DNA of 34,373 nt, taken from positions 1-34,373 of IMG/VR virus record IMGVR_UViG_3300049057_000245. One strand, written 5' to 3'. Below, piece after piece: positions 1 to 34,373 of this stretch. The notes under the pieces were generated by a model. That model made no database searches. It worked only from the letters and a program-made list of their open reading frames with translations, and was not told where the DNA came from. Both the position numbers and the translations under genes were made by a program. The stretch comes from a virus. The first letter of the stretch is position 1. Each line of letters starts with the position of its first letter.

Positions 1-2547
1 GATTTTGACCCTGTACCTGTATTGGGTGTGCATGCCGTTGGAAAACTTGAAGATGGAAGCATTGCGTTTCAATTTGATGCAAGTGAATCATGGGTGTTTG
101 GATCCACAATCACAGGTTATGAATGGATTGCACCAGATAGTGCATCCATTGATGATGATACGAGCACGACACCGATCATCACTTATGAAACGGCGGGCAA
201 TCATCCTGTGTATTGCATTGTGACTGCAGACAATGGAAAGTCTGCGACTGGTGTACGTTTTGCTTTCCGATTCGATGATGAAAATAAGCCACACGTTGTG
301 GAAATCACGGATGACCCAACGAGTGAATATGATAACGGTGGGTGGAGTTTGGGTTTGAAGATGTTTGCAGATGCAGACCCAACAGAAATTATTGAAGGTG
401 CGTTGTGCATCCTTTTCAGCGAGGATTGGTATGGGAACACGAAGCAGTCAGTCGGTCCGATTGAGGGGCGGGAAAATATCATTTGTGTTGGATATATCTC
501 TGAGAAGGAAAATATTATTTGGGACGCTGAAGCATCCAGTGTTGAATTCACGGTGCAGGGTCCGCAGTATTGGTTGAACAAAATCACAACGAACCCAACG
601 GGTTTGGGAATTGCAACGAATACACCTGATGAATGGAACGTGATGCCTGCGTTAACCGTTGACCGTGCGTTGTGGCACATTTTGCATTGGCGTAGTAATG
701 CAACAGTTTTGATGGATATTCAATTGACGGGTGATGCACGTTACACACCAAAAATGGAAACGATGGAAGGTTCATTGTGGCGACAGTTAGGTGAAGCGGC
801 TTGGAAAAAAATATTTGGGCGAATTGGGTGTGATCGGTTTGGAAGATTTTTTGCAGTGATTGAACCGCAGTGTGTGCCCGTGGAAGATAGAACGTGGGAC
901 ACTGTGATGACTTTGGTGAAGAAAGATTGGCGACAACGCGTGAGCACACGCCGAATTTCAGAACGTCAGTTGGCGATGTTGAGCACAAGCGGTTGGTTGT
1001 GTGATGCAACTGGCTCGGTGAACACGTTGTATTCTTTGGCGTTGGGCCACATTCATGCTGACTATGGCGATACAGAAATTATTGACCAGTTGTTGGTGGC
1101 CAGCCAAGCACAAGCGAATGAGCAAGCAGGTTTGTATATGGGTTGGATCAATAACCCCTTCCCTGAGTTTGAATTTGATTTGGGACAGAACAACCGCGTG
1201 ATTGATTTGTTTCCGAATCAGTTTTTGGATGTGAACTTATTAGCTGAAGATAATCCGCGTGGAATCGCGTATGAAGGCAACCTGATTCCACGGTCAATTA
1301 CTTTGCGCTTTGATTCTGAAGCTGGCTGTTGGGATACAGAAATATTTTGTGAAGCAGAGACATTCCCTGAGCTGGCGATTGATGGAGATATTCCAGCAAC
1401 GACAGGTATCGGTGACTATGATTTTTCATTACCGCCTTTGCCAGATTTCCCTGAATTGGATCTCGGGGCATTAGGAGATCTCGTTTACATGCCGCCTGAT
1501 GTGGTGAATGCAAACCACCCCAAACAAGTAGTGATTACATCGAATAATTTTGGCGTTTTATATACGGTCGATTTTGATGCGGAGAACCCCACTTGGCAAA
1601 CGATGAACAACGGTTTGAGCAGTACGGAAATTCAAGAAATTGCACAAATTGTTGTTGCGCGCTCAGGCGCACTTTACATCATGACAGGAGGATATTCTGG
1701 TTCAGGTGGCGGCTGGGACAGCATTTATCGAGCAAGCGCATTAGGTGCCACATGGGTGAAAGTTTTCAGTGCCACCGAATATTCAGCAACTGCAAAAATT
1801 AGTGGTTTGGGTGTAAACCCATTAGCGGATGACCAAGTTGCAATTGTTGTGGGAGATAGCTACATTAGTTTTGGTGATTTAGATACTCATAACATTTATG
1901 TGGGCAACAACGGTTCGTTTAGCGCGGGAGGCTTAGCCCGCCTTAAATTTAATTATTATCAAAAAGGGATTGTCTTTTGGAAAAACAATTGGATTGTCTC
2001 TGGGCATCGTCCCTTTGGTATTGGTGGTTCGTTGGCATCATCTCGATATTGGCAATTTGATGAAGGCGGCTCTTTAGTTGGCGACCAAGATGGAGTGTCA
2101 TGGGGAAGCGGAGCAGGTGCAACGGTTGGGGATGCGCATGCGATTTCGTCGGTCAATTTAATTTTATGGGGTTGCAACACCACGAGTGATTATTCGATTG
2201 TGGAAGATTTAGAAGGACTGAGCATTACAGATGTATTGACAGGCATTCATGTTTTGCAAGTGCAAGATATGGCCATTTCACCGACGAATGTGTATGCGAT
2301 GGGCAATGATTCGGGTGTGGCATATAAATCAACTGACAGTTTGGCAACATGGTCTGCGGTTTCAGGCGTGATTCCAAACGGCTCGGATGTGTGGGAAAAC
2401 TGTGGAGATAACAACCGCTTTCTTTTTGGCGGCGGCACGGTGATGCGCTTGACAATTGATCAGGGTGCTACCTACGTCAATAAAAATGGCAACCTTGGGT
2501 ACATTGCACCGTTGATTGACATCACAGGAATTAGGTTTATCGCATGA
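1..2547 (+). CDS. Tail-tip / receptor-binding structural protein with PKD-like and beta-propeller parts (5' partial)
   Basis: The frame is open from base 1, so the start lies upstream; 848 residues are visible. Residues about 10-100 look like a PKD/Ig-like domain (alternating strands, a GYEW motif followed by a serine/threonine-rich stretch). Residues about 100-460 resemble a phage tail-hub or tail-tip module. A proline-rich linker (about 465-500) leads to a C-terminal half with BNR/sialidase-like strands (for example STDSLATW near the end), typical of beta-propellers. The product is probably exposed at the tail end and binds the host surface. Its stop overlaps the next start by 4 bases (ATGA), so translation is coupled. 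The structural role rests on composition and neighbourhood; no exact family is recognised. Confidence 0.75.
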   Translation, partial: DFDPVPVLGVHAVGKLEDGSIAFQFDASESWVFGSTITGYEWIAPDSASIDDDTSTTPIITYETAGNHPVYCIVTADNGKSATGVRFAFRFDDENKPHVVEITDDPTSEYDNGGWSLGLKMFADADPTEIIEGALCILFSEDWYGNTKQSVGPIEGRENIICVGYISEKENIIWDAEASSVEFTVQGPQYWLNKITTNPTGLGIATNTPDEWNVMPALTVDRALWHILHWRSNATVLMDIQLTGDARYTPKMETMEGSLWRQLGEAAWKKIFGRIGCDRFGRFFAVIEPQCVPVEDRTWDTVMTLVKKDWRQRVSTRRISERQLAMLSTSGWLCDATGSVNTLYSLALGHIHADYGDTEIIDQLLVASQAQANEQAGLYMGWINNPFPEFEFDLGQNNRVIDLFPNQFLDVNLLAEDNPRGIAYEGNLIPRSITLRFDSEAGCWDTEIFCEAETFPELAIDGDIPATTGIGDYDFSLPPLPDFPELDLGALGDLVYMPPDVVNANHPKQVVITSNNFGVLYTVDFDAENPTWQTMNNGLSSTEIQEIAQIVVARSGALYIMTGGYSGSGGGWDSIYRASALGATWVKVFSATEYSATAKISGLGVNPLADDQVAIVVGDSYISFGDLDTHNIYVGNNGSFSAGGLARLKFNYYQKGIVFWKNNWIVSGHRPFGIGGSLASSRYWQFDEGGSLVGDQDGVSWGSGAGATVGDAHAISSVNLILWGCNTTSDYSIVEDLEGLSITDVLTGIHVLQVQDMAISPTNVYAMGNDSGVAYKSTDSLATWSAVSGVIPNGSDVWENCGDNNRFLFGGGTVMRLTIDQGATYVNKNGNLGYIAPLIDITGIRFIA

Positions 2548-3722
2548 GTGATTTAAGAAGCATTCAAAACACATTCAAGGCTTTGAGCAAGCGCAAAGAT
2601 ATTGAGATGCCTGGCTTCTTGGGTAACCTTGGAGGCGTTGTTCAAGCTGACAACTTCCAAAATGTGTATGTAACTCTGTGGAATGGTGAAGTTGTGACGG
2701 TGAATAATCAACGTGTGCCTAATATTCGACGATTGCCCGTCATTGTTGGTTATGACGCGACCAACCCGAATATGCGACAGGTATTGCGCTCGCGGGAAGC
2801 CTTCCCTGATAAGCATTTCAAGGATATTGCATTGCATGCTAAGACCCATGAATGGGGAGAGTTGGATACATTATGGATTCGGGCACAACAATTTTTACCT
2901 GGTTTGATAGTGCCTAACGATGATCTATCGGTTCATTACACAGGCGGATGGTATTTCTTAAATGGTTGGCATGTATTGCCCGCTCAAGATATTGATTTAT
3001 CCGCAAACGTTCCTGACAGTGGTGCGATTTTTGTTTTGCCTGAAGTAGATGAAGACGGTGTGATTACTTTAGCAGAAGGCAGCGCGGCTGATTCAAGAAG
3101 TGTATTGACCAATACGAATATTCCAAGCCAGAGTGATAATAAAAAATCACTCAAGTATGCAATTAAGTTATATGAGGGACAAACTACTGTACTTGAAACA
3201 AAAACTGATAGTGATCTTGTTGATTTGCGTTGGGGAGGTGCTGACCCTGCCGATTGGAATGAAATTTTCAATATGCCTGATTGGATTGGCAAAGCTTTAG
3301 AGCCAGCAACAATTGTTACTGGCAAAGAGATGCCGTCTTATTTTATAGATGGCACGCTGGCGGTTTACACAGATGTGACGGCATCTTTCGTTGCTCAAAG
3401 ATATATGAAACTACACAGCATTTTGATTCACTGCAAGGATAAAGGCAGTGCGGATACAACGATTGTAGATGCACATTTGAACGGCACAACGATTTTCACG
3501 GACCAAGATAAACGCCCGATGTTAGATTGGGACGCGACAGAAGATTATGCAATATCAGATACACCCGATGTGATTGAACTTGCCCCAGGTGATGTATTGA
3601 CATTTGATATTGATGAAATTGCAATGGATGTAAGTGGATTGACGATCACACCGTTTGAACGAGTTGTTGAATTGGTCACGATTGAAGATGACATCGCGAC
3701 CGTACAAGTGGAGATGACATAA
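2544..3722 (+). CDS. Phage tail structural protein, hypothetical, beta-rich
   Basis: This 392-residue protein starts inside the stop of the upstream tail gene (ATGA overlap) and ends in a TAATG junction with the next gene. It has no signal peptide or membrane segment. Residues about 30-65 read like a short beta domain that handles a changing value (NVYVTLWNGEVVTVNNQRV). The C-terminal part, about 265-392, has the alternating strand pattern of a jelly-roll or lectin-like fold ending in an acidic tail. No catalytic motif is visible. Its place between the tail-tip protein and tail-fibre genes supports a virion role, perhaps a baseplate or fibre-attachment protein. The exact function is unknown. 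Confidence 0.7.
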   Translation: MSDLRSIQNTFKALSKRKDIEMPGFLGNLGGVVQADNFQNVYVTLWNGEVVTVNNQRVPNIRRLPVIVGYDATNPNMRQVLRSREAFPDKHFKDIALHAKTHEWGELDTLWIRAQQFLPGLIVPNDDLSVHYTGGWYFLNGWHVLPAQDIDLSANVPDSGAIFVLPEVDEDGVITLAEGSAADSRSVLTNTNIPSQSDNKKSLKYAIKLYEGQTTVLETKTDSDLVDLRWGGADPADWNEIFNMPDWIGKALEPATIVTGKEMPSYFIDGTLAVYTDVTASFVAQRYMKLHSILIHCKDKGSADTTIVDAHLNGTTIFTDQDKRPMLDWDATEDYAISDTPDVIELAPGDVLTFDIDEIAMDVSGLTITPFERVVELVTIEDDIATVQVEMT

Positions 3723-14763: not shown

Positions 14764-14955
14764 ATGTTTCCTGTAAAAGTCGAAACAAGAGTTTTGTTGA
14801 ATTGCCCTAATTGTAAATTCAGTTCAAGGTACGACGCTGAATTTTTATCTGATGCAATCAAAGAACATAAAAGCATTTCATGTGTCGCTTGTGGTGAACA
14901 CTTTCAAATCATTATCCAAAGTATTGAAAAGGTAAAAGATGCAACAAGTAGCTGA
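14764..14955 (+). CDS. Small zinc-ribbon protein
   Basis: The 63-residue protein begins 4 bases after the recombinase stop and overlaps the methyltransferase start by 17 bases. CPNC at residues 14-17 and CVAC at 40-43 give a clear two-knuckle zinc ribbon, separated by a helix-containing loop (FLSDAIKEHKSI). The C-terminal tail (IIIQSIEKVKDAT) is short and helical. It may help DNA binding by the recombinase or the methyltransferase; only the gene order suggests this. Confidence 0.68.
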   Translation: MFPVKVETRVLLNCPNCKFSSRYDAEFLSDAIKEHKSISCVACGEHFQIIIQSIEKVKDATSS

Positions 14956-16519
14956 TTTATTTTGTGGTGCAGGTGGCACATCCACTGGCGTGTTGCAAGC
15001 CGCTGATGAACTTGGTTTGAAAGTGAATTTGATTGCTGTCAATCATTGGGATTTGGCAATTGCCACGCATTCAGAAAATCACCCTGGCATGAGTCACTAC
15101 AATGCAGATTTGGAAGATATCAATCCAAATGAAGTTGTGCCATCAGGCAAATTGCGTTTATTGGTTGCATCACCCGAATGCACACATTTCAGCCGCGCAC
15201 GTGGTGGCAAGCCGATGAGTGATCAAAGCCGCACATCTGCCAAACACATTATCCACTGGGCAAAGGCTTTAGATATCGAAGATATCCTGATTGAGAACGT
15301 CCCTGACTTTGTAGATTGGGGACCGCTTGATCGCGAAACCATGCGACCTATCAAAGCACGGAAAGGTCAATATTTCCATAAGTTCATTCGTGATCTTGAA
15401 TCGCTTGGTTACAAAGTGGCATGGCGAATTCTCAATGCGGCTGACTATGGTGACCCAACCACACGCAAACGTTTATTCATCATTGCACGCAAGCATCAAG
15501 CCATTCGTTTCCCTGAACCAACACATCACAAAGATGGTGGCGATATGTTCGGTGCTCGTCCGAAGTGGAAACCAGCTCGCGAGATTATTGATTGGACCAT
15601 CAAAGGCGAGTCAATATTCAAACGCAAGAAACCACTTGCTGAAAACACTTTGCGTCGCATTTGGGCAGGCTTGATGAAATATGGTGGCAAAGCATTTGTC
15701 ATTGGTCAGCAATCAGGTGCAACTCCGCGTGATGTTGATCAACCTGTGCCAACAGTTGCTGCAGCAGGTGCAATTTCAATGGTAGAGCCATATCTTGTTG
15801 AATATCACAACGGCAAGAATTCAGAGCGCAGAACACGTTCAATTGAAGATCCACTTCCAACGCTTGATACAAGTAATCGCTTTGGATTATGTGAGCCATT
15901 CATAATCCCTCAGTTCTCTTCAAGTGCTCCCGTTAGCGTTGATAAACCTTTAGGAGTAATCACAACGACCAGCAGGGGTATCGGTTTAGTTGAGCCATTC
16001 ATCATTCCATTCTTTGGTGAACGTGATGGTCAAGAACCTCGCACACATTCAATTGACAATCCTTTGCCATCTGTTACATCACATGGTGCAGGAGCACTGA
16101 TTGAGCCTTTCATTATTCAAATGGAGCAAGGTGGCAGTTTGCATGATGTTGATAAGCCCATGCCAACCATCACAACTGCTGATGCCTTTGCAGTTGTGGA
16201 TCCATTTCTTGTTGAGTATTACGGCACAGGTGCAGTTGCTTCCATAGATGATCCAATGAAAACCATCACAGCTCGTGATCACTTCGCATTGGTTCAGCCT
16301 ATGGCATTTGAACAAGATGGCAAGAAGTATCTGCTTGACATTCGCTTCCGTATGTTGCAGCCACATGAACTGGCACGTGCCATGTCATTCCCTAAGTCAT
16401 ACAAGTTCAAAGGTACACGTGAGCAAGTAGTCAAACAGATTGGCAATGCTGTACCAGTCAACTTGGCAAAGCAACTTGCGAAAGCCCTATTGAAAACACC
16501 AGTCGCAAATGTCAACTGA
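14939..16519 (+). CDS. DNA (cytosine-C5) methyltransferase with repeat-built target-recognition region
   Basis: The start has AAAGG 6 bases upstream. Motif I is DLFCGAGGTSTG (residues 6-17). Motif IV is SPECTHFS with catalytic Cys81; the usual proline before the cysteine is replaced by glutamate. Motif VI is ENVP (119-122), and motif X is QIGNAVPVNLA near 500. The protein methylates C5 of cytosine with S-adenosylmethionine. Between about residues 255 and 465 lies a run of 5-6 similar units with a core like SIDDPLPT(I/V)T followed by EPF(I/L)I, where the target-recognition domain normally sits. Similar insertions are known in other phage enzymes. No cognate endonuclease gene is adjacent, so it is probably an orphan enzyme that guards phage DNA. 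Confidence 0.93.
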   Translation: MQQVADLFCGAGGTSTGVLQAADELGLKVNLIAVNHWDLAIATHSENHPGMSHYNADLEDINPNEVVPSGKLRLLVASPECTHFSRARGGKPMSDQSRTSAKHIIHWAKALDIEDILIENVPDFVDWGPLDRETMRPIKARKGQYFHKFIRDLESLGYKVAWRILNAADYGDPTTRKRLFIIARKHQAIRFPEPTHHKDGGDMFGARPKWKPAREIIDWTIKGESIFKRKKPLAENTLRRIWAGLMKYGGKAFVIGQQSGATPRDVDQPVPTVAAAGAISMVEPYLVEYHNGKNSERRTRSIEDPLPTLDTSNRFGLCEPFIIPQFSSSAPVSVDKPLGVITTTSRGIGLVEPFIIPFFGERDGQEPRTHSIDNPLPSVTSHGAGALIEPFIIQMEQGGSLHDVDKPMPTITTADAFAVVDPFLVEYYGTGAVASIDDPMKTITARDHFALVQPMAFEQDGKKYLLDIRFRMLQPHELARAMSFPKSYKFKGTREQVVKQIGNAVPVNLAKQLAKALLKTPVANVN

Positions 16520-22219: not shown

Positions 22220-23188
22220 ATGGAAACAAAAATTATTTCTGTTGGGTTGGATGCAGGGATGGGGGCGATCAAGTTGTGGAGCGATATGGGCGGGTTGGAT
22301 GTGCTTTCGCAAGTGGCTGTGAATGGAAGCGGTCACTTGGAAGGGATGATCGGTTTGAAGAGTGAGCGTCGCCCGTTGGTTGTGCAAACGGAAGAGGGTC
22401 AGTTTTATGTGGGGGCACGTGCTCACAATTATGGCAGACCGATTGAGAATTTAGATTTTGACCGTCTGTTTGGATCACCTGAAATGCGGGCGTTAGTATA
22501 TGGCTCGTTGACACGTTACATGGAGGCACATGGTGCTTTTGAGGCGCCGCTTTCCATCATGGTTGGTTTGCCGCTGCAGACGATGGGCGATGATATGAAG
22601 GAAGCGCGTAAGAGTTTGCGGAAGTGGTTGGCTGGTCCGCATGTGTGGAATGCTGATGGTAATGAATATAAGGTGAACGTGGAACGCGTGCGATGGACAT
22701 CTCAACCTGTGGGTGCGTTATTCGATTTTGTTTTGAATGGCGATTTGGATATTGCTCAGGGGCGCGGCTCCGCTCTGACCGATGAAGTGGGTGTGCTTTC
22801 GGTCGGTTTCAACACGCTGGAGCTGATGGTGGTGCAAGACCAAGTTGCGACTGAGCGCTTCACTGGTGGTGAGAAGTTGGGTGTGCGCCGTTTGTTGGAG
22901 CTGTTGAATGCGGGCAATCAATATTCACTCGGTGAGTTGGATGTAAAACTTCGGACTGGTAATTTGAAGTTCAAAGATAAGTTGCCGATTTGGGCACGTG
23001 AGGTGAACGGTGCAATTGAACGTGTATGGGGCGAGGCGTTGAGCCGTTTTGCCGCTGTGTTGGTTGTGGGCGGCGGGGCTGTATTGTTGGGTGAGCATTT
23101 GCAGTTGCGGGGGAAGGGTCAGGTTTTGGATAACCCTGTGATGGCGATTGCGCATGGTTTGCATAAGTTGGATAAGAAGAAAGGTTAG
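22220..23188 (+). CDS. ParM/actin-like ATPase (plasmid-segregation type)
   Basis: AAGGAG ends 8 bases before the ATG. The 322-residue product has the actin fold motifs: phosphate-1 VGLDAGMGAIK (8-18, D11), a middle segment VGLPLQT (115-121) and the adenosine motif VVGGGAVLLG (282-291). The phosphate-2 position reads VLSVGFNTLEL (192-202), where the usual aspartate is replaced by serine. ParM-like proteins form filaments that push plasmid copies or phage DNA apart. The partner, a ParR-like adaptor, might be the small protein encoded at 23858. The missing aspartate could change ATP hydrolysis or mark a distinct subfamily. Confidence 0.8.
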   Translation: METKIISVGLDAGMGAIKLWSDMGGLDVLSQVAVNGSGHLEGMIGLKSERRPLVVQTEEGQFYVGARAHNYGRPIENLDFDRLFGSPEMRALVYGSLTRYMEAHGAFEAPLSIMVGLPLQTMGDDMKEARKSLRKWLAGPHVWNADGNEYKVNVERVRWTSQPVGALFDFVLNGDLDIAQGRGSALTDEVGVLSVGFNTLELMVVQDQVATERFTGGEKLGVRRLLELLNAGNQYSLGELDVKLRTGNLKFKDKLPIWAREVNGAIERVWGEALSRFAAVLVVGGGAVLLGEHLQLRGKGQVLDNPVMAIAHGLHKLDKKKG

Positions 23189-28995: not shown

Positions 28996-30569
28996 TGTCT
29001 CCTACCCCGAAACAAGCTCAGGCAGAGTTGGCGAAGCGTGAACTGGCACGTCGTCATCTGATTGATTTCAGTATGTATGTGGCGCCGTGGTACAAGCCCG
29101 CGAAGCATCATATTTATTTGGCTGAGAAATTGGAGCAAGTGAAAAAATATATTGAGACGCAAGGTGCTGAAGGCATCGGGCGTTTGTTGATTTGTGAACC
29201 TGCACAGTACGGGAAAACGGAACAGGCAAGCCGCCTGTTCCCATCATGGGTTTTGGGAGATCTACCTGACACGCGCATCATTTTGACTTCTTATGGTGCG
29301 GACCTTGCAACGGAGAACAGTCGTTATACCCGCAATTATGTTGGCAGTGAAGCCTATGCAAATATTTTTGGTGCACGTTCGGCGGTGGATGAACCTGTTG
29401 AGTTGAGCCCCGAAAGTAGATCGGTAGTCTCTTGGAATTTGAAAGGACATCGAGGATCTGTATTTGCGGCTGGTGTTGGCGGCGGTATTACGGGACGCCC
29501 AGCAAATTTAATTGTGATTGATGACCCATTCAAAAGCCGTGAAGATGCGGAAAGTGAAACGTATCGCAAAAAAGTAATGAGTTGGTATCGCTCGGTTATT
29601 TATCCACGCGTGGCAAATACGCCTGGTGCGGCGATCATTATTATGCACACACGATGGGACCAAGAAGATTTGGCGGGTCAGTTATTGACGCAGATGATCA
29701 GTGACCCTGAATCGGATCAATGGGAAGTTGTGTTCTTGCCCGCGATCGCTTTGGAGTTGGATAAGTATCCAAAGACGGTTGAAGAATATAAAGAGAATTT
29801 ATTGCGTGGGATTTATATCCCGATGGGTTCGGATGGTGATGCGCTTGGACGCAAGCCAGGTGAACCATTATGGCCAGAACGTTCGGATGCAAAGAAGTTG
29901 GCGGCTACACGTGCAAACATGATGGATTATGACTTTGAGGCGATTTTCCAACAGATGCCGAGAATGTCTGACGGTGAATTTTTTGATGATAAAGATTTCA
30001 TAATTATTGAACGCAATGAAGTGCCTGAAGGTTTGCAATGGTATCGGTTATCTGATTTAGCAATTGGTGAAAGTGAAACCAGCGATTGGAATTCAACCCT
30101 TGCTGTGGCTTTGGATTCGAAAAGCGGTGATTTGATTTTGAGGGATCGTATCAAAGTACATAAATTGGAAAAGTTTTTGCCTGATTTAAAAGTGGCAATG
30201 CTTTCGGATGCTGAAAAAGATACTGAATGGGGTATTGAGGATAATAACTTTCAAACTTTGGTAGTGAGAAATTTTTTGAAAGATCCTGATTTGGTGAAAG
30301 TTCGTATTCGGGCAGTTAGATCTGAAAAAGATAAAGTGTCACGCGCACGACCGTGGGCGTTGCGTGCGAAGCAAGGCCATGTGAAGTTGGTGCGTGGTCC
30401 GTGGAATTTAGATTTTATTCGTGAAGCAACTGCATTCCCGAAAGGCAGACACGATGATGATGTTGATAGTGTCAGCGGTGGTGTGGAGATGATCTCTGGT
30501 GATGGCGGTAATGAAAAAACGGCGAGCAGTGAGCCAGTTGTTGTGATGGCAGAGGAGATGTTTGCATAA
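28995..30569 (+). CDS. terL: Terminase large subunit
   Basis: The 524-residue protein has a P-loop-like motif LICEPAQYGKTE (65-76; a variant Walker A), a Walker B LIVIDDP (172-178) and a coupling motif MHTRWDQEDLAG (about 217-228). The C-terminal half is a nuclease fold with acidic residues in LSDLAIGESETSDW (about 353-366) and HDDDVDSVSGG near the end. It translocates DNA into the prohead with ATP and cuts concatemers. The start overlaps the small-terminase stop by one base. Portal is expected next but is not found. The motif set makes this identification firm. Confidence 0.95.
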   Translation: MSPTPKQAQAELAKRELARRHLIDFSMYVAPWYKPAKHHIYLAEKLEQVKKYIETQGAEGIGRLLICEPAQYGKTEQASRLFPSWVLGDLPDTRIILTSYGADLATENSRYTRNYVGSEAYANIFGARSAVDEPVELSPESRSVVSWNLKGHRGSVFAAGVGGGITGRPANLIVIDDPFKSREDAESETYRKKVMSWYRSVIYPRVANTPGAAIIIMHTRWDQEDLAGQLLTQMISDPESDQWEVVFLPAIALELDKYPKTVEEYKENLLRGIYIPMGSDGDALGRKPGEPLWPERSDAKKLAATRANMMDYDFEAIFQQMPRMSDGEFFDDKDFIIIERNEVPEGLQWYRLSDLAIGESETSDWNSTLAVALDSKSGDLILRDRIKVHKLEKFLPDLKVAMLSDAEKDTEWGIEDNNFQTLVVRNFLKDPDLVKVRIRAVRSEKDKVSRARPWALRAKQGHVKLVRGPWNLDFIREATAFPKGRHDDDVDSVSGGVEMISGDGGNEKTASSEPVVVMAEEMFA

Positions 30570-30574
30570 AGATG

Positions 30575-30638
30575 ACCCCTCCCCCAGCCCCTCCCCAAAT
30601 ATTCGCAAAGAGCAAGAGCGCGAATTTGGAGAGGGGAG
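30575..30638. repeat. Palindromic element A5 (intergenic)
   Basis: GACCCCTCCCCCAGCCCC starts the element. The stem is CCAAATATTCGC (30595-30606) with GCGAATTTGG, two bases shorter. It ends in AGAGGGGAGGAG. It fills most of the gap between the large terminase and the capsid gene. Confidence 0.8.
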
Positions 30639-30662
30639 GAGAGTTGAAATCAAGGAGTAATT

Positions 30663-33302
30663 ATGAAAAAGAAAATTGGTAAAGGTCAAGAAATTACAGA
30701 GTTGGTGAAGGGAAGCATGGATTACACGATGCAGGCGATTCGCAATGCGTTTCGTGCTCAGTTCCCATATAGCGAAGCTCACGATTATTGGATCGTTGAG
30801 ATGTTTGCCGATTATGTAATTGTGAACGATTGGAAAAGCAATGAGTTGAAGGTGGATGAATATTTCAAAGTAACTTATTCAAAAACTGGTGATGATGCTT
30901 ATACATTTGCTGAACGTGAGGCATGGGAAATTGTGGAGCTGACCTATCAGCCGCAATCAACTATCAGCGAGAACAAAGGCAAGAAGAGAAAAGGGCAACG
31001 CATTGAAGAGCGGGTTGATGCGGCTGTCATATTGGAAGAGGCGCAAGACGGTAAGGCGCGCCGAATCAAAATTGAAGGTGCTATCACGGCGGATGTTGTC
31101 AATGGCAACAAACGCCGATACCCAGTCCATGTGCTTGAAGCGGCGGTTGCTGAATTGAGCATTCATCTGAATGAAAGTGCTGGACAGGGACGAGCAGTTC
31201 AAGTTTTAGGTGAGGCAGAACATCCGTCTGACAAGGGCGGGCGTCCGAATTTGCTGGAGACCGTGACGAAATGGGAAGAAGTTTCGATGAGCGGTAAACG
31301 TGTGGACCTAACGGGACGCGTTTTAGAAACCAGTAAGGGGAAGGACATCCTGACTTTGATGGAAGGCGGCGTGATGCCAGGCGTTAGCTTGCGCGGCTAT
31401 GGTGAAGGCAAGAATATCAAACAAGGCGATGAAAAAATTTTTGAAGTGACGGAACTGCACATCACAGGTTTTGACTTGGTGCTTGAACCGTCATTTGAGA
31501 ATGTCGCCGAATTAATTGAATCAACTAATCAAGGAGAATTTGAAATGAACGAATTATTGGAACAACTTAAAAAGGCACGCGCCGAACACCCCGAATTGTT
31601 TGGTGATGTGACTGAAGCAAAACTTGAAGCTATGAATGAAAAGGCTCTCAAACAATTTGATGAGACTTTGCGCTCAAAACTTGGCATTGGTAAAGATGCA
31701 GATATTGCAAAAGCAATTGATGAAGCAACCAGCAAAGCCAAAAAATTTGATGAGTTGCAAGCCAAAGCCGAAGTGGATTCTGCAATCGCTGAAGCGACCA
31801 AAGATTTGAAATTTGGTAAAGAGTTGAATGAGGCTTATGTTGAAGCATTGAAAGATGCTGCACCTGCAACTGTTGAAGAAGTAAAGAAGTTAGTTGAGTC
31901 TCAAAACAAGACTTTTAGCAAACTCGCTTCAAAGAAAAACCTCAAAGGTATGGGCTTCAAAGGCGGCACTGGTGTGGAAGTTATCGGTGATGTGCTTGAG
32001 AACGAAACTCAAACCCCTGAGTTTGCACGTGCCTCGTTTGAGTTAGTTGAATCGGTGCGACGTACACAAAACCTTCCTGCACGCAAATTGACCGAAGGAG
32101 TCAGTGCAGCGGAAATCTTCACTCGCCGTTTGCTGAAACGCTTTGATGAATTGAATGGCGATGCCTTGCTTGCTGAAAGTAAGTTGTTACAGGAAGCAAC
32201 ATTGACCACCGATCTCAACATCCCCTACAGTGTATCGCGTGCAATCATCGAGGAAGCATTTCCGAACCTCGTGGCTGCGAATATCTTTGATGTAGGGACG
32301 ATCGAAACGAGCCCAACACGTTTGTATTTTGAAACAACTACAGGCGAGAGTGGCTATTCAGTCGACATTACCGATGAAGTTGAAGTTGCTGGCGCAGAAA
32401 ATGTTTGGTACGCCCTTGCGCATGGCCGCATCACCCCAGGAACTGTAGTCGTCACATCAAACCCAGCTGGCACTACTTATGTTGAAGGCGTTGATTTCGT
32501 AATCGATTATGCGGCTGGCAAGATCAAACCATTAACGCCTGGTGATATCGGTACAAACGATATTCTAGTGGATTATTCCTACACCTCGATCCGCAACGGT
32601 GAAATGCAACCTATTGAAAGAGTGAAAACCTCTCTTTCTTACATAACCATTGAAGCCGCTGCTGACCGCCTGGCTGACCAAATCAGCCGTGAAGCAATTG
32701 TATTTTCCCGCTCACAATTGGGATGGGATGCAGTTGCACGAACGATGACAAACTTGATCAAGCAGTTGCGCCGCAAGATTGACCAAGGCTTATTGTATGC
32801 AGCTTTCTCGGCTGTCATGTCTGTGCCAAATAATAGCACCGACCCTTGGACAGTTGGAACTTCACAAGAAGACCTTGAAGAATTGGTGCGCTTGATGGGT
32901 AATGCAAATGTGATCGTTTCAAACCGATTCTATGAACCCACTTTTTATTTAATGAGCGTGACGAATGCAGACCGCTTGAGCAATTGGCAAGGTTTCATGC
33001 GTGATGGTTTCCCGAATGTTTTGTTAAATGCAGCTGGCTTTGCTGGAATGGTGAAAGGCAAACCGATTTTTGCTTCAACAGAATGTCCTGACACCTTAAT
33101 CATCGCTGGCAACCGTGAATTGGTTCAACATCGTGTTTTCCAACCACTGAGCATCAAAGGTCCATTCCCAACCTATGCAACCTCTGGCGATGTGACCCGT
33201 ATTGTTGCGGCTGATCAATATTATGCCGAAGAATTCAATACGACAAATGTAACTGTAAATGAAAAGGGTGCGTTTGTTCCGATTGAAGAAGCTGGTTCGT
33301 AA
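30663..33302 (+). CDS. Fused prohead protease, scaffold and major capsid protein
   Basis: AAGGAG is 5 bases before the ATG. Residues 1-100 are a charged helical or mixed domain (DYWIVEMFADYVIVNDW), typical of phage prohead proteins. Residues 115-290 resemble a prohead protease: EGAITADVVNGNKRRYP, then EHP with H187, and GVSLRGYG with S242 as possible catalytic residues, then HITGFDLVLEPSF. Residues 295-430 are a charged helical scaffold-like part beginning at M295. Residues about 440-879 are a major capsid protein of HK97-like type (LNIPYSVSRAIIEEAFPN and later VRLMGNANVIVSN). A second strong ribosome site at 31531-31536 precedes M295. The gene may therefore make both the full fusion and a separate scaffold-capsid form. 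Confidence 0.85.
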   Translation: MKKKIGKGQEITELVKGSMDYTMQAIRNAFRAQFPYSEAHDYWIVEMFADYVIVNDWKSNELKVDEYFKVTYSKTGDDAYTFAEREAWEIVELTYQPQSTISENKGKKRKGQRIEERVDAAVILEEAQDGKARRIKIEGAITADVVNGNKRRYPVHVLEAAVAELSIHLNESAGQGRAVQVLGEAEHPSDKGGRPNLLETVTKWEEVSMSGKRVDLTGRVLETSKGKDILTLMEGGVMPGVSLRGYGEGKNIKQGDEKIFEVTELHITGFDLVLEPSFENVAELIESTNQGEFEMNELLEQLKKARAEHPELFGDVTEAKLEAMNEKALKQFDETLRSKLGIGKDADIAKAIDEATSKAKKFDELQAKAEVDSAIAEATKDLKFGKELNEAYVEALKDAAPATVEEVKKLVESQNKTFSKLASKKNLKGMGFKGGTGVEVIGDVLENETQTPEFARASFELVESVRRTQNLPARKLTEGVSAAEIFTRRLLKRFDELNGDALLAESKLLQEATLTTDLNIPYSVSRAIIEEAFPNLVAANIFDVGTIETSPTRLYFETTTGESGYSVDITDEVEVAGAENVWYALAHGRITPGTVVVTSNPAGTTYVEGVDFVIDYAAGKIKPLTPGDIGTNDILVDYSYTSIRNGEMQPIERVKTSLSYITIEAAADRLADQISREAIVFSRSQLGWDAVARTMTNLIKQLRRKIDQGLLYAAFSAVMSVPNNSTDPWTVGTSQEDLEELVRLMGNANVIVSNRFYEPTFYLMSVTNADRLSNWQGFMRDGFPNVLLNAAGFAGMVKGKPIFASTECPDTLIIAGNRELVQHRVFQPLSIKGPFPTYATSGDVTRIVAADQYYAEEFNTTNVTVNEKGAFVPIEEAGS
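31531..31547 (+). promoter_or_regulatory. Internal in-frame ribosome site and ATG in the capsid gene
   Basis: AAGGAG (31531-31536) is 8 bases before an ATG (31545-31547) in the same frame as the whole gene. It lies exactly at the joint between the protease and scaffold parts (residue 295). The product from here would be 585 residues. A nested scaffold start within a protease gene is known in lambda-like phages (C/Nu3). Confidence 0.7.
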
Positions 33303-33318
33303 TTTGTAATTTGAAATT

Positions 33319-33353
33319 TGTAGGGGCGGACGCTTCGCAGTCTCGCCCCTACA
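33319..33353. repeat. Palindromic element C1 (intergenic)
   Basis: TGTAGGGGCG (33319-33328) faces CGCCCCTACA (33344-33353), with a further GAC/GTC stem inside. It lies between the capsid stop and the start at 33365, with no T-run. It shares its arms with the outer part of 27710-27791. Confidence 0.8.
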
Positions 33354-33364
33354 TGGAATTATCA

Positions 33365-34373
33365 ATGTCTAACAATTATTGGATGAAGCCTGTTGATTTT
33401 TTTGCAAGACGTGCGCATTTTGTTGATCATCTTGCGCCGATTTATGCCGCTTTAGACCCGAGCATTCGTGGAAAGTTTTATGTGCCTGCGATTTTATTTG
33501 ATACTGCAGTTGCCAAAGGGATTGATGCAGTGGCTTTGAAATCACGCGGCGTGAATGACCCAACACTGGTTGTGCCTGAAGGTGAAGGTCCGTTGGTTGT
33601 TTGTGGTTACGGTGATTTGCAAATTGCACATCGTAAACAACCGAAGCGACCGATGATTTATCTTGAGCACGGCGTTGGGTTGAGCTTCAATCACCCTGCT
33701 TATTCAGGCGGCAAAGGTGTGAAGCGATCTGTGAGTTTATTTTTGGATCCGAATGAGCATGTGCGGGCGAAGAATCAGAAGGCGTTTCCGCAGACTGATG
33801 GGTTTGTGATTGGGACGCCGAAGTTAGATCGCATCTTTACCCCTCCCTTTGTCCCTCCCCAAATATTCGCAAAGAACAAGGGCGCGGAATATTTGGAGAT
33901 GGGAAAGAAGTCTGTTGTTTGTATTTCATTTCATTGGGATGGGAAGGCTGTGGCGGCTGAAGCTGGAAATGCTTTGGCTCATTACAAGTCTGTGTTGGCT
34001 GAGCTTGCACAACAAGATGATTTTGTTTTGATTGGGCATGGTCACCCACGCATTGTGGATGTGCTTGAACGTACCTATAAAAGTTTGGGGATTGAGTTTG
34101 TGCGAGATTTTGAAGAAGTGATGGAACGTGCTGATTTGTATGTGAACGATTGTTCGAGCACGTTGTATGAGTTTTGTGCAACTGGCAAGCCTGTGGTGAT
34201 TTTGAACGCACCGAATTTTAGAAAGAACGTTCATCATGGCATCCGCTTTTGGCAATATGCGGATGTGGGTCCGCAGGTGGAAGAGGCGAAAGACTTGTTA
34301 TCAGTTATCAGAGAACAACTTGACCCCACCCCCGACCCCTCCCCGAATTCTATGAATTCAGAGAGGGGAGTTA
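33365..34373 (+). CDS. CDP-glycerol glycerophosphotransferase-like transferase (3' partial)
   Basis: The frame is open from the ATG at 33365 to the window end (336 codons). Residues about 100-115 hold YLEHGVGLSFNHP, similar to the His-Gly motif of this transferase family. Residues about 258-275 hold NDCSSTLYEFCATGKPVV, typical of the nucleotide-binding C-terminal half. The enzyme type adds glycerol phosphate or sugar to a wall polymer or protein; in a phage it might change the host surface or decorate virions. Palindromic element A6 (33839-33905) is read in frame near residues 159-180, between the two halves. Another copy (A7) is at the window end. Confidence 0.75.
   Translation, partial: MSNNYWMKPVDFFARRAHFVDHLAPIYAALDPSIRGKFYVPAILFDTAVAKGIDAVALKSRGVNDPTLVVPEGEGPLVVCGYGDLQIAHRKQPKRPMIYLEHGVGLSFNHPAYSGGKGVKRSVSLFLDPNEHVRAKNQKAFPQTDGFVIGTPKLDRIFTPPFVPPQIFAKNKGAEYLEMGKKSVVCISFHWDGKAVAAEAGNALAHYKSVLAELAQQDDFVLIGHGHPRIVDVLERTYKSLGIEFVRDFEEVMERADLYVNDCSSTLYEFCATGKPVVILNAPNFRKNVHHGIRFWQYADVGPQVEEAKDLLSVIREQLDPTPDPSPNSMNSERGV
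33839..33905. repeat. Palindromic element A6, in frame in the transferase gene
   Basis: ACCCCTCCCTTTGTCCC starts the element. The stem is CCAAATATTC (33859-33868) with GAATATTTGG (33887-33896), 10 bp without mismatch. It is translated as TPPFVPPQIFAKNKGAEYLE, joining the N-terminal and C-terminal halves of the transferase. Confidence 0.85.
34322..34370. repeat. Palindromic element A7, in frame at the window end
   Basis: GACCCCACCCCCGACCCC starts the element. The stem is GAATTC (34345-34350) and GAATTC (34354-34359), then AGAGAGGGGAG. It is read in the transferase frame as DPTPDPSPNS. The gene may end shortly after the window. Confidence 0.7.

Follow-up and report, generated by a model that had tools for sequence, protein, structure and literature searches.

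A single gene of this tailed phage encodes, as one polypeptide, the head cassette that in T4 is made up of genes 21, 22 and 23, namely the prohead protease, the scaffold and the major capsid protein. The gene (30663–33302, plus strand; 879 amino acids, ATG start) lies in IMG/VR virus record IMGVR_UViG_3300049057_000245, positions 1 to 34,373 of which (34,373 nucleotides) form the window analysed here. Very likely, the scaffold's old ribosome-binding site and start codon have been kept within this frame as a nested start, giving two co-terminal proteins: the 879-residue full fusion and a 585-residue scaffold-capsid protein. Both forms would co-assemble via their common scaffold and capsid parts, and the protease would be carried into the prohead attached to shell subunits, its proportion being set by the two ribosome-binding sites. 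Once assembly is complete, the protease is expected to cut after glutamate residues at conserved sites, freeing itself near Glu286, degrading the scaffold and trimming the capsid protein near residues 505–512. We infer the two products, their co-assembly, the order of cleavage and the product ratio from the observations set out below.

The 879-codon frame with three functions, as claimed in the preliminary description, is present as an open reading frame, and its parts were confirmed by Pfam, Foldseek and VIA-align. The full-length product has its own AAGGAG ribosome-binding site (30652–30657, plus strand) 5 nt before the ATG at 30663. No promoter or terminator scoring above shuffled sequences was found before or within the gene. 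A G+C-rich hairpin (30573–30640, CCCCTCCCC...GGGGAGG) occupies the space between the terminase and fusion genes just 5' of the ribosome-binding site, the predicted fold of 30560–30690 having an energy of -33.4 kcal/mol, and a GTAGGGGCGG...CGCCCCTAC palindrome is found 3' of the gene at about 33320–33352. The polypeptide begins with an alpha/beta domain of 105 residues (30663–30977), which, judging from the model and the comparison of relatives, is optional: about a third of the relatives' fusions have no counterpart of it, and no separate copy was found next to most of those. In two relatives (L026 and L027) there is an additional insertion between this domain and the protease.

The protease domain covers residues 112–280 (30996–31502). 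Residues 118–278 match Peptidase_S77 in Pfam (E=1.6e-18, 67.3 bits against a family cut-off of 27), no Peptidase_S78 match was found in the fusion protein with Pfam, and the domain also matches phrog_207, 'head maturation protease' (E=8e-26). An AlphaFold2 model of residues 1–441 has a pLDDT of 83, with a low-confidence linker at 279–290 (pLDDT <50). Its protease part is matched by the T4 gp21 fold (5jbl; Foldseek E=1.2e-11, TM 0.74 on the target), an entry also found by sequence. His187 (31221–31223), Ser242 (31386–31388) and Asp271 (31473–31475) are invariant in 54 sequences and align with gp21 columns; the 5jbl chain has alanine at the aligned His and Ser columns and is presumably an inactive construct. 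By sequence and predicted fold, then, this is a prohead protease of the T4 gp21 type, with H187, S242 and D271 as candidate catalytic residues.

The scaffold or delta-domain region extends from residue 295 to about residue 505 (31545–32177), its end being placed by the conservation of Glu505 and Glu511 and by the HK97 alignment described below. AlphaFold2 predicts residues 291–429 to be entirely helical, as expected for a scaffold. The remaining part, from about residue 506 to residue 879 (32178–33299), was modelled with a pLDDT of 79.5 as an HK97-fold major capsid protein, closest to T4 gp23 and gp24 (7vrt, Z 18.7; 1yue, Z 17.6) and followed by HK97 prohead II (Z 16.6); a sequence search of the PDB with the C-terminal part matched no solved capsid protein. 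Residues 569–647 (32367–32603) form an insertion in the capsid protein that matches phrog_807, 'major tail protein with Ig-like domain'. Its probable location is the E-loop region, and it may serve as a built-in decoration or clamp.

The signal for the second product lies at the joint between protease and scaffold. On recounting, the joint proved to be laid out as initially described: an AAGGAG Shine-Dalgarno sequence at 31531–31536 and, after a gap of 8 bases, the in-frame ATG 31545–31547, which is codon 295 and would start a scaffold-capsid protein of 585 residues. For every in-frame start in the relatives, we calculated how well the preceding 16 bases pair with the anti-Shine-Dalgarno sequence, taking -7 kcal/mol or lower as strong. 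Of the 65 non-redundant relatives, a set in which kinship was reduced by a 90% identity filter alone, 63 (97%) have an in-frame ATG or GTG with a strong Shine-Dalgarno at residues 281–300. Elsewhere inside the gene, 20-residue bins show such a combination in 0–23% of these sequences, mostly in fewer than 10%; around the start of the gene itself, the figure is still only 56%. The best Shine-Dalgarno energy per joint has a median of -9.3 kcal/mol, the weakest being -6.4; for stretches of the same size from other parts of these genes, the figure is -5.0. The start and its Shine-Dalgarno are retained in relatives that are only 36% identical, as well as in Virus Rctr41k (KX853513).

Around this signal, the linker differs among relatives in both sequence and length. 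The Shine-Dalgarno falls in codon phase 0 in some relatives (NQGEFEM) and in phase 2 (SSMEDEM) or phase 1 in others, its spacing shifting to match, and is translated as QGE, MED, SED, QEE and others; the start codon is GTG in some relatives. This variability points to selection on the RNA signal rather than on the peptide, and the conservation of the predicted start indicates that it is very probably genuine. A comparison of synonymous codons at the Shine-Dalgarno (GGA in 17 of 17 phase-0 cases versus 10% overall; GAG in 46 of 46 phase-2 cases versus 52%) is circular, as the cases were picked by their GGAG motif, and is not used as evidence.

T4 gp21 cleaves behind L/I-X-E motifs and undergoes processing at its own C terminus (PMC9026906). 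In the fusion, all 65 sequences have Glu at residue 286, which precedes the internal start by nine residues, and 51 of them conform there to [LI]xE, in a linker that is otherwise weakly conserved. By analogy with gp21, Glu286 is a good candidate for the site of protease release, between E286 and S287 of the sequence LIES (31512–31523). Further conserved glutamates are found at residues 446, 463, 505 and 511. Residue 119 of HK97 prohead II aligns with residue 519 of the fusion, and mature HK97 gp5 starts at residue 104, so the mature capsid protein probably starts near residues 505–512 rather than near residue 440 as suggested at first. No solved structure of an actinophage fusion from which the mature N terminus could be read was found.

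The T4 head contains about 55 copies of the gp21 protease and 580 of the gp22 scaffold (PMC9958956), compared with which an equal product ratio would be unusual, so that by analogy with T4 the short form should be the more abundant one. A large excess is not predicted by the sequence, because the two Shine-Dalgarno sequences are about equally strong: -8.0 kcal/mol for the upstream and -8.5 for the internal one in the window, with the internal one slightly stronger over 60 relatives (-9.3 versus -8.1, uncorrected for relatedness). We therefore dropped the argument from Shine-Dalgarno strength for a large excess. Of the two products predicted in the preliminary description, the short scaffold-capsid form is supported by its conserved start, and the suggestion that the full-length fusion is rare draws little support from two nearly equal ribosome-binding sites.

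The upstream start with its good Shine-Dalgarno could also be the only one in use, in which case every shell subunit would carry a protease, later cut off, and the internal Shine-Dalgarno would be a relic or a chance purine-rich stretch. Cleavage at Glu286 would indeed release the protease from every subunit. However, a relic would be expected to decay, yet 63 of 65 relatives keep the strong Shine-Dalgarno and start despite turnover of the linker; in addition, a prohead could hardly accommodate one protease per subunit, T4 having about one protease per 10 scaffolds. We regard this possibility as improbable. Slightly less probable still is an exchange of roles, with the short product serving only as scaffold or core and the fusion as the main shell protein, or with the two starts being used at different times. 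Such an arrangement would fit the equal strength of the two Shine-Dalgarno sequences in the window, but the short product contains a complete capsid domain, and among in-frame starts in the 65 relatives there is no further conserved peak that would give the capsid protein alone. Co-assembly of two forms from two starts thus remains the preferred reading, and the interpretation in the preliminary description is largely borne out.

This reading presupposes that the fusion itself is genuine. Using patterns from the protease domain, we collected 88 viral contigs encoding relatives, 80 of which were kept. Protease and scaffold share one open frame in all 83 joint-spanning loci from these 80 contigs and other fetched relatives. 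A search with the capsid part returned 59 loci, of which 55 are fused, none is split and the other 4 are truncated by contig ends, some of the 59 coming from contigs that are also in the first set, as the two sets overlap. The same fusion is encoded in two assemblies of cellular genomes (Clostridiales bacterium PH28_bin88 and a MAG bearing the label Slackia) and in gene 30 of Virus Rctr41k (GenBank KX853513), whose product APU89242 is 62.7% identical over the full length. Neither protease-based nor capsid-based queries revealed a split relative, the four loci without a protease being contig ends, and no joint-spanning relative has a frameshift at the joint or a stop codon before the internal start. 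Frame breaks occur elsewhere, within the capsid part of L040 and the N-terminal part of L074, where the N-terminal domain (961–1542) is in a different frame that overlaps the remaining fusion (1257–3536), reflecting a frameshift or sequencing error. The TAA in the neighbouring frame (31526–31528) is present as pointed out earlier, but the single-base error that it was thought to hint at, by which an assembly or sequencing artefact would have joined two ordinary adjacent genes, is excluded, because independent contigs from many metagenomes, the two cellular assemblies and KX853513 are all open through the joint.

Gene 30 of Virus Rctr41k is annotated as 'putative phage capsid protein and protease', with mention of neither a scaffold nor an internal start. 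The order of functions in the fusion is that of T4 genes 21-22-23, with a homologous S77 protease (5jbl) and with gp23 and gp24 as the closest capsid folds, but T4 has three separate genes where the present phage has one. Three annotated phages with a related protease likewise have three adjacent genes in this order, and their 21/22 boundary corresponds in position to the joint of the fusion. A route from a T4-like three-gene cassette to one gene, by loss of the stop codon with the ribosome-binding site kept, is suggested by the conserved nested start. T4 gene 21 does have a second start codon (PMC9026906), but this start (Met45) is inside gp21, unlike the present one at the boundary of protease and scaffold.

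A parallel to the nested start is offered by the classical cases of lambda C/Nu3 and herpesvirus UL26/UL26.5, in which a product containing protease and scaffold is accompanied by a more abundant nested scaffold with the same C terminus. As in lambda, the in-frame internal start with its Shine-Dalgarno lies at the protease/scaffold boundary. In those systems, however, the capsid protein is encoded by a separate gene, whereas here it is part of both predicted products. The parallel to Nu3 drawn in the preliminary description thus holds for the position of the start and does not extend to a scaffold-only product, since the frame continues through the capsid protein, as was recognized there. In HK97, the scaffold (delta domain) is likewise fused to the N terminus of the capsid protein gp5 and removed by the protease, but the protease is encoded by a separate gene.

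Fusions of all three functions are known from small actinophages, namely clusters EE, AN, AX, FE, CW, DM and RRH1, according to PMC7302621, and capsid-protease fusions from Arthrobacter AM/AU phages, according to PMC5513430. With tripartite fusions already described and KX853513 annotated as one, the fusion as such is not novel. In Microbacterium EE and Arthrobacter AN phages and in RRH1, one gene likewise combines protease, scaffold and HK97-fold capsid protein; wherever Pfam assigns the protease, it is Peptidase_S78 (HK97 type) there and S77 in the present clade. No sequence relation between the two groups was found. As judged from these family assignments, the S77 clade is a different lineage from the actinophage S78 fusions, working alike with a protease of another family. 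The word 'internal' does not occur in PMC7302621, nor is a second start mentioned in the passages on AM/AU fusions consulted in PMC5513430. Our literature searches found no publication that links such a fusion of protease, scaffold and capsid to internal translation, and no description of an ATG with a Shine-Dalgarno at the joint of tripartite fusions. What is new here is the T4-type protease in a tripartite fusion together with a conserved nested start whose product includes the capsid protein.

A phage with a tripartite fusion faces the problem of how not to load several hundred shell subunits with one protease each, to which the nested start is a concrete, testable answer. We inspected 19 fusions from EE, AN, AU/AM and related phages, RRH1, a Faecalibacterium phage and a Lactococcus phage, and most have an ATG with a purine-rich Shine-Dalgarno directly after the protease; this ATG often outscores all others in the gene. 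Examples include Efeko (AGGAGG, -10.3 kcal/mol), Mudcat (AAGGAG, -8.5) and Oengus (AGGAGG, -10.3); the signal is unclear in Namo and Crocheter, and another ATG scores better in Berka, Sputnik and Penoan. The joint ATG and Shine-Dalgarno across S78 fusions is thus a lead. It is about as likely as not that S77 and S78 fusions follow a general rule, evolved repeatedly, of placing a nested ribosome-binding site at the protease/scaffold joint, with the ratio of the two starts setting the protease dose and shell subunits delivering it. Actinophage loci annotated as 'major capsid and protease fusion', such as L094, L163, L165 and L098, have an in-frame ATG with a Shine-Dalgarno just after the S78 protease. 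Such annotations probably miss a second product; annotated fusions have one product each, and most probably need a second start marked.

Several other genes of the window can be assigned to families. The ORF directly after the capsid gene (33359–34372), inside which the window ends, matches Glyphos_transf / Epimerase_2; in Rctr41k, its position is taken by small genes of unknown function. An ORF at 22220–23185 matches the partition protein family phrog_691, possibly a sign of plasmid-like maintenance, and 14939–16516 encodes a C-5 cytosine DNA methyltransferase (Pfam DNA_methylase).
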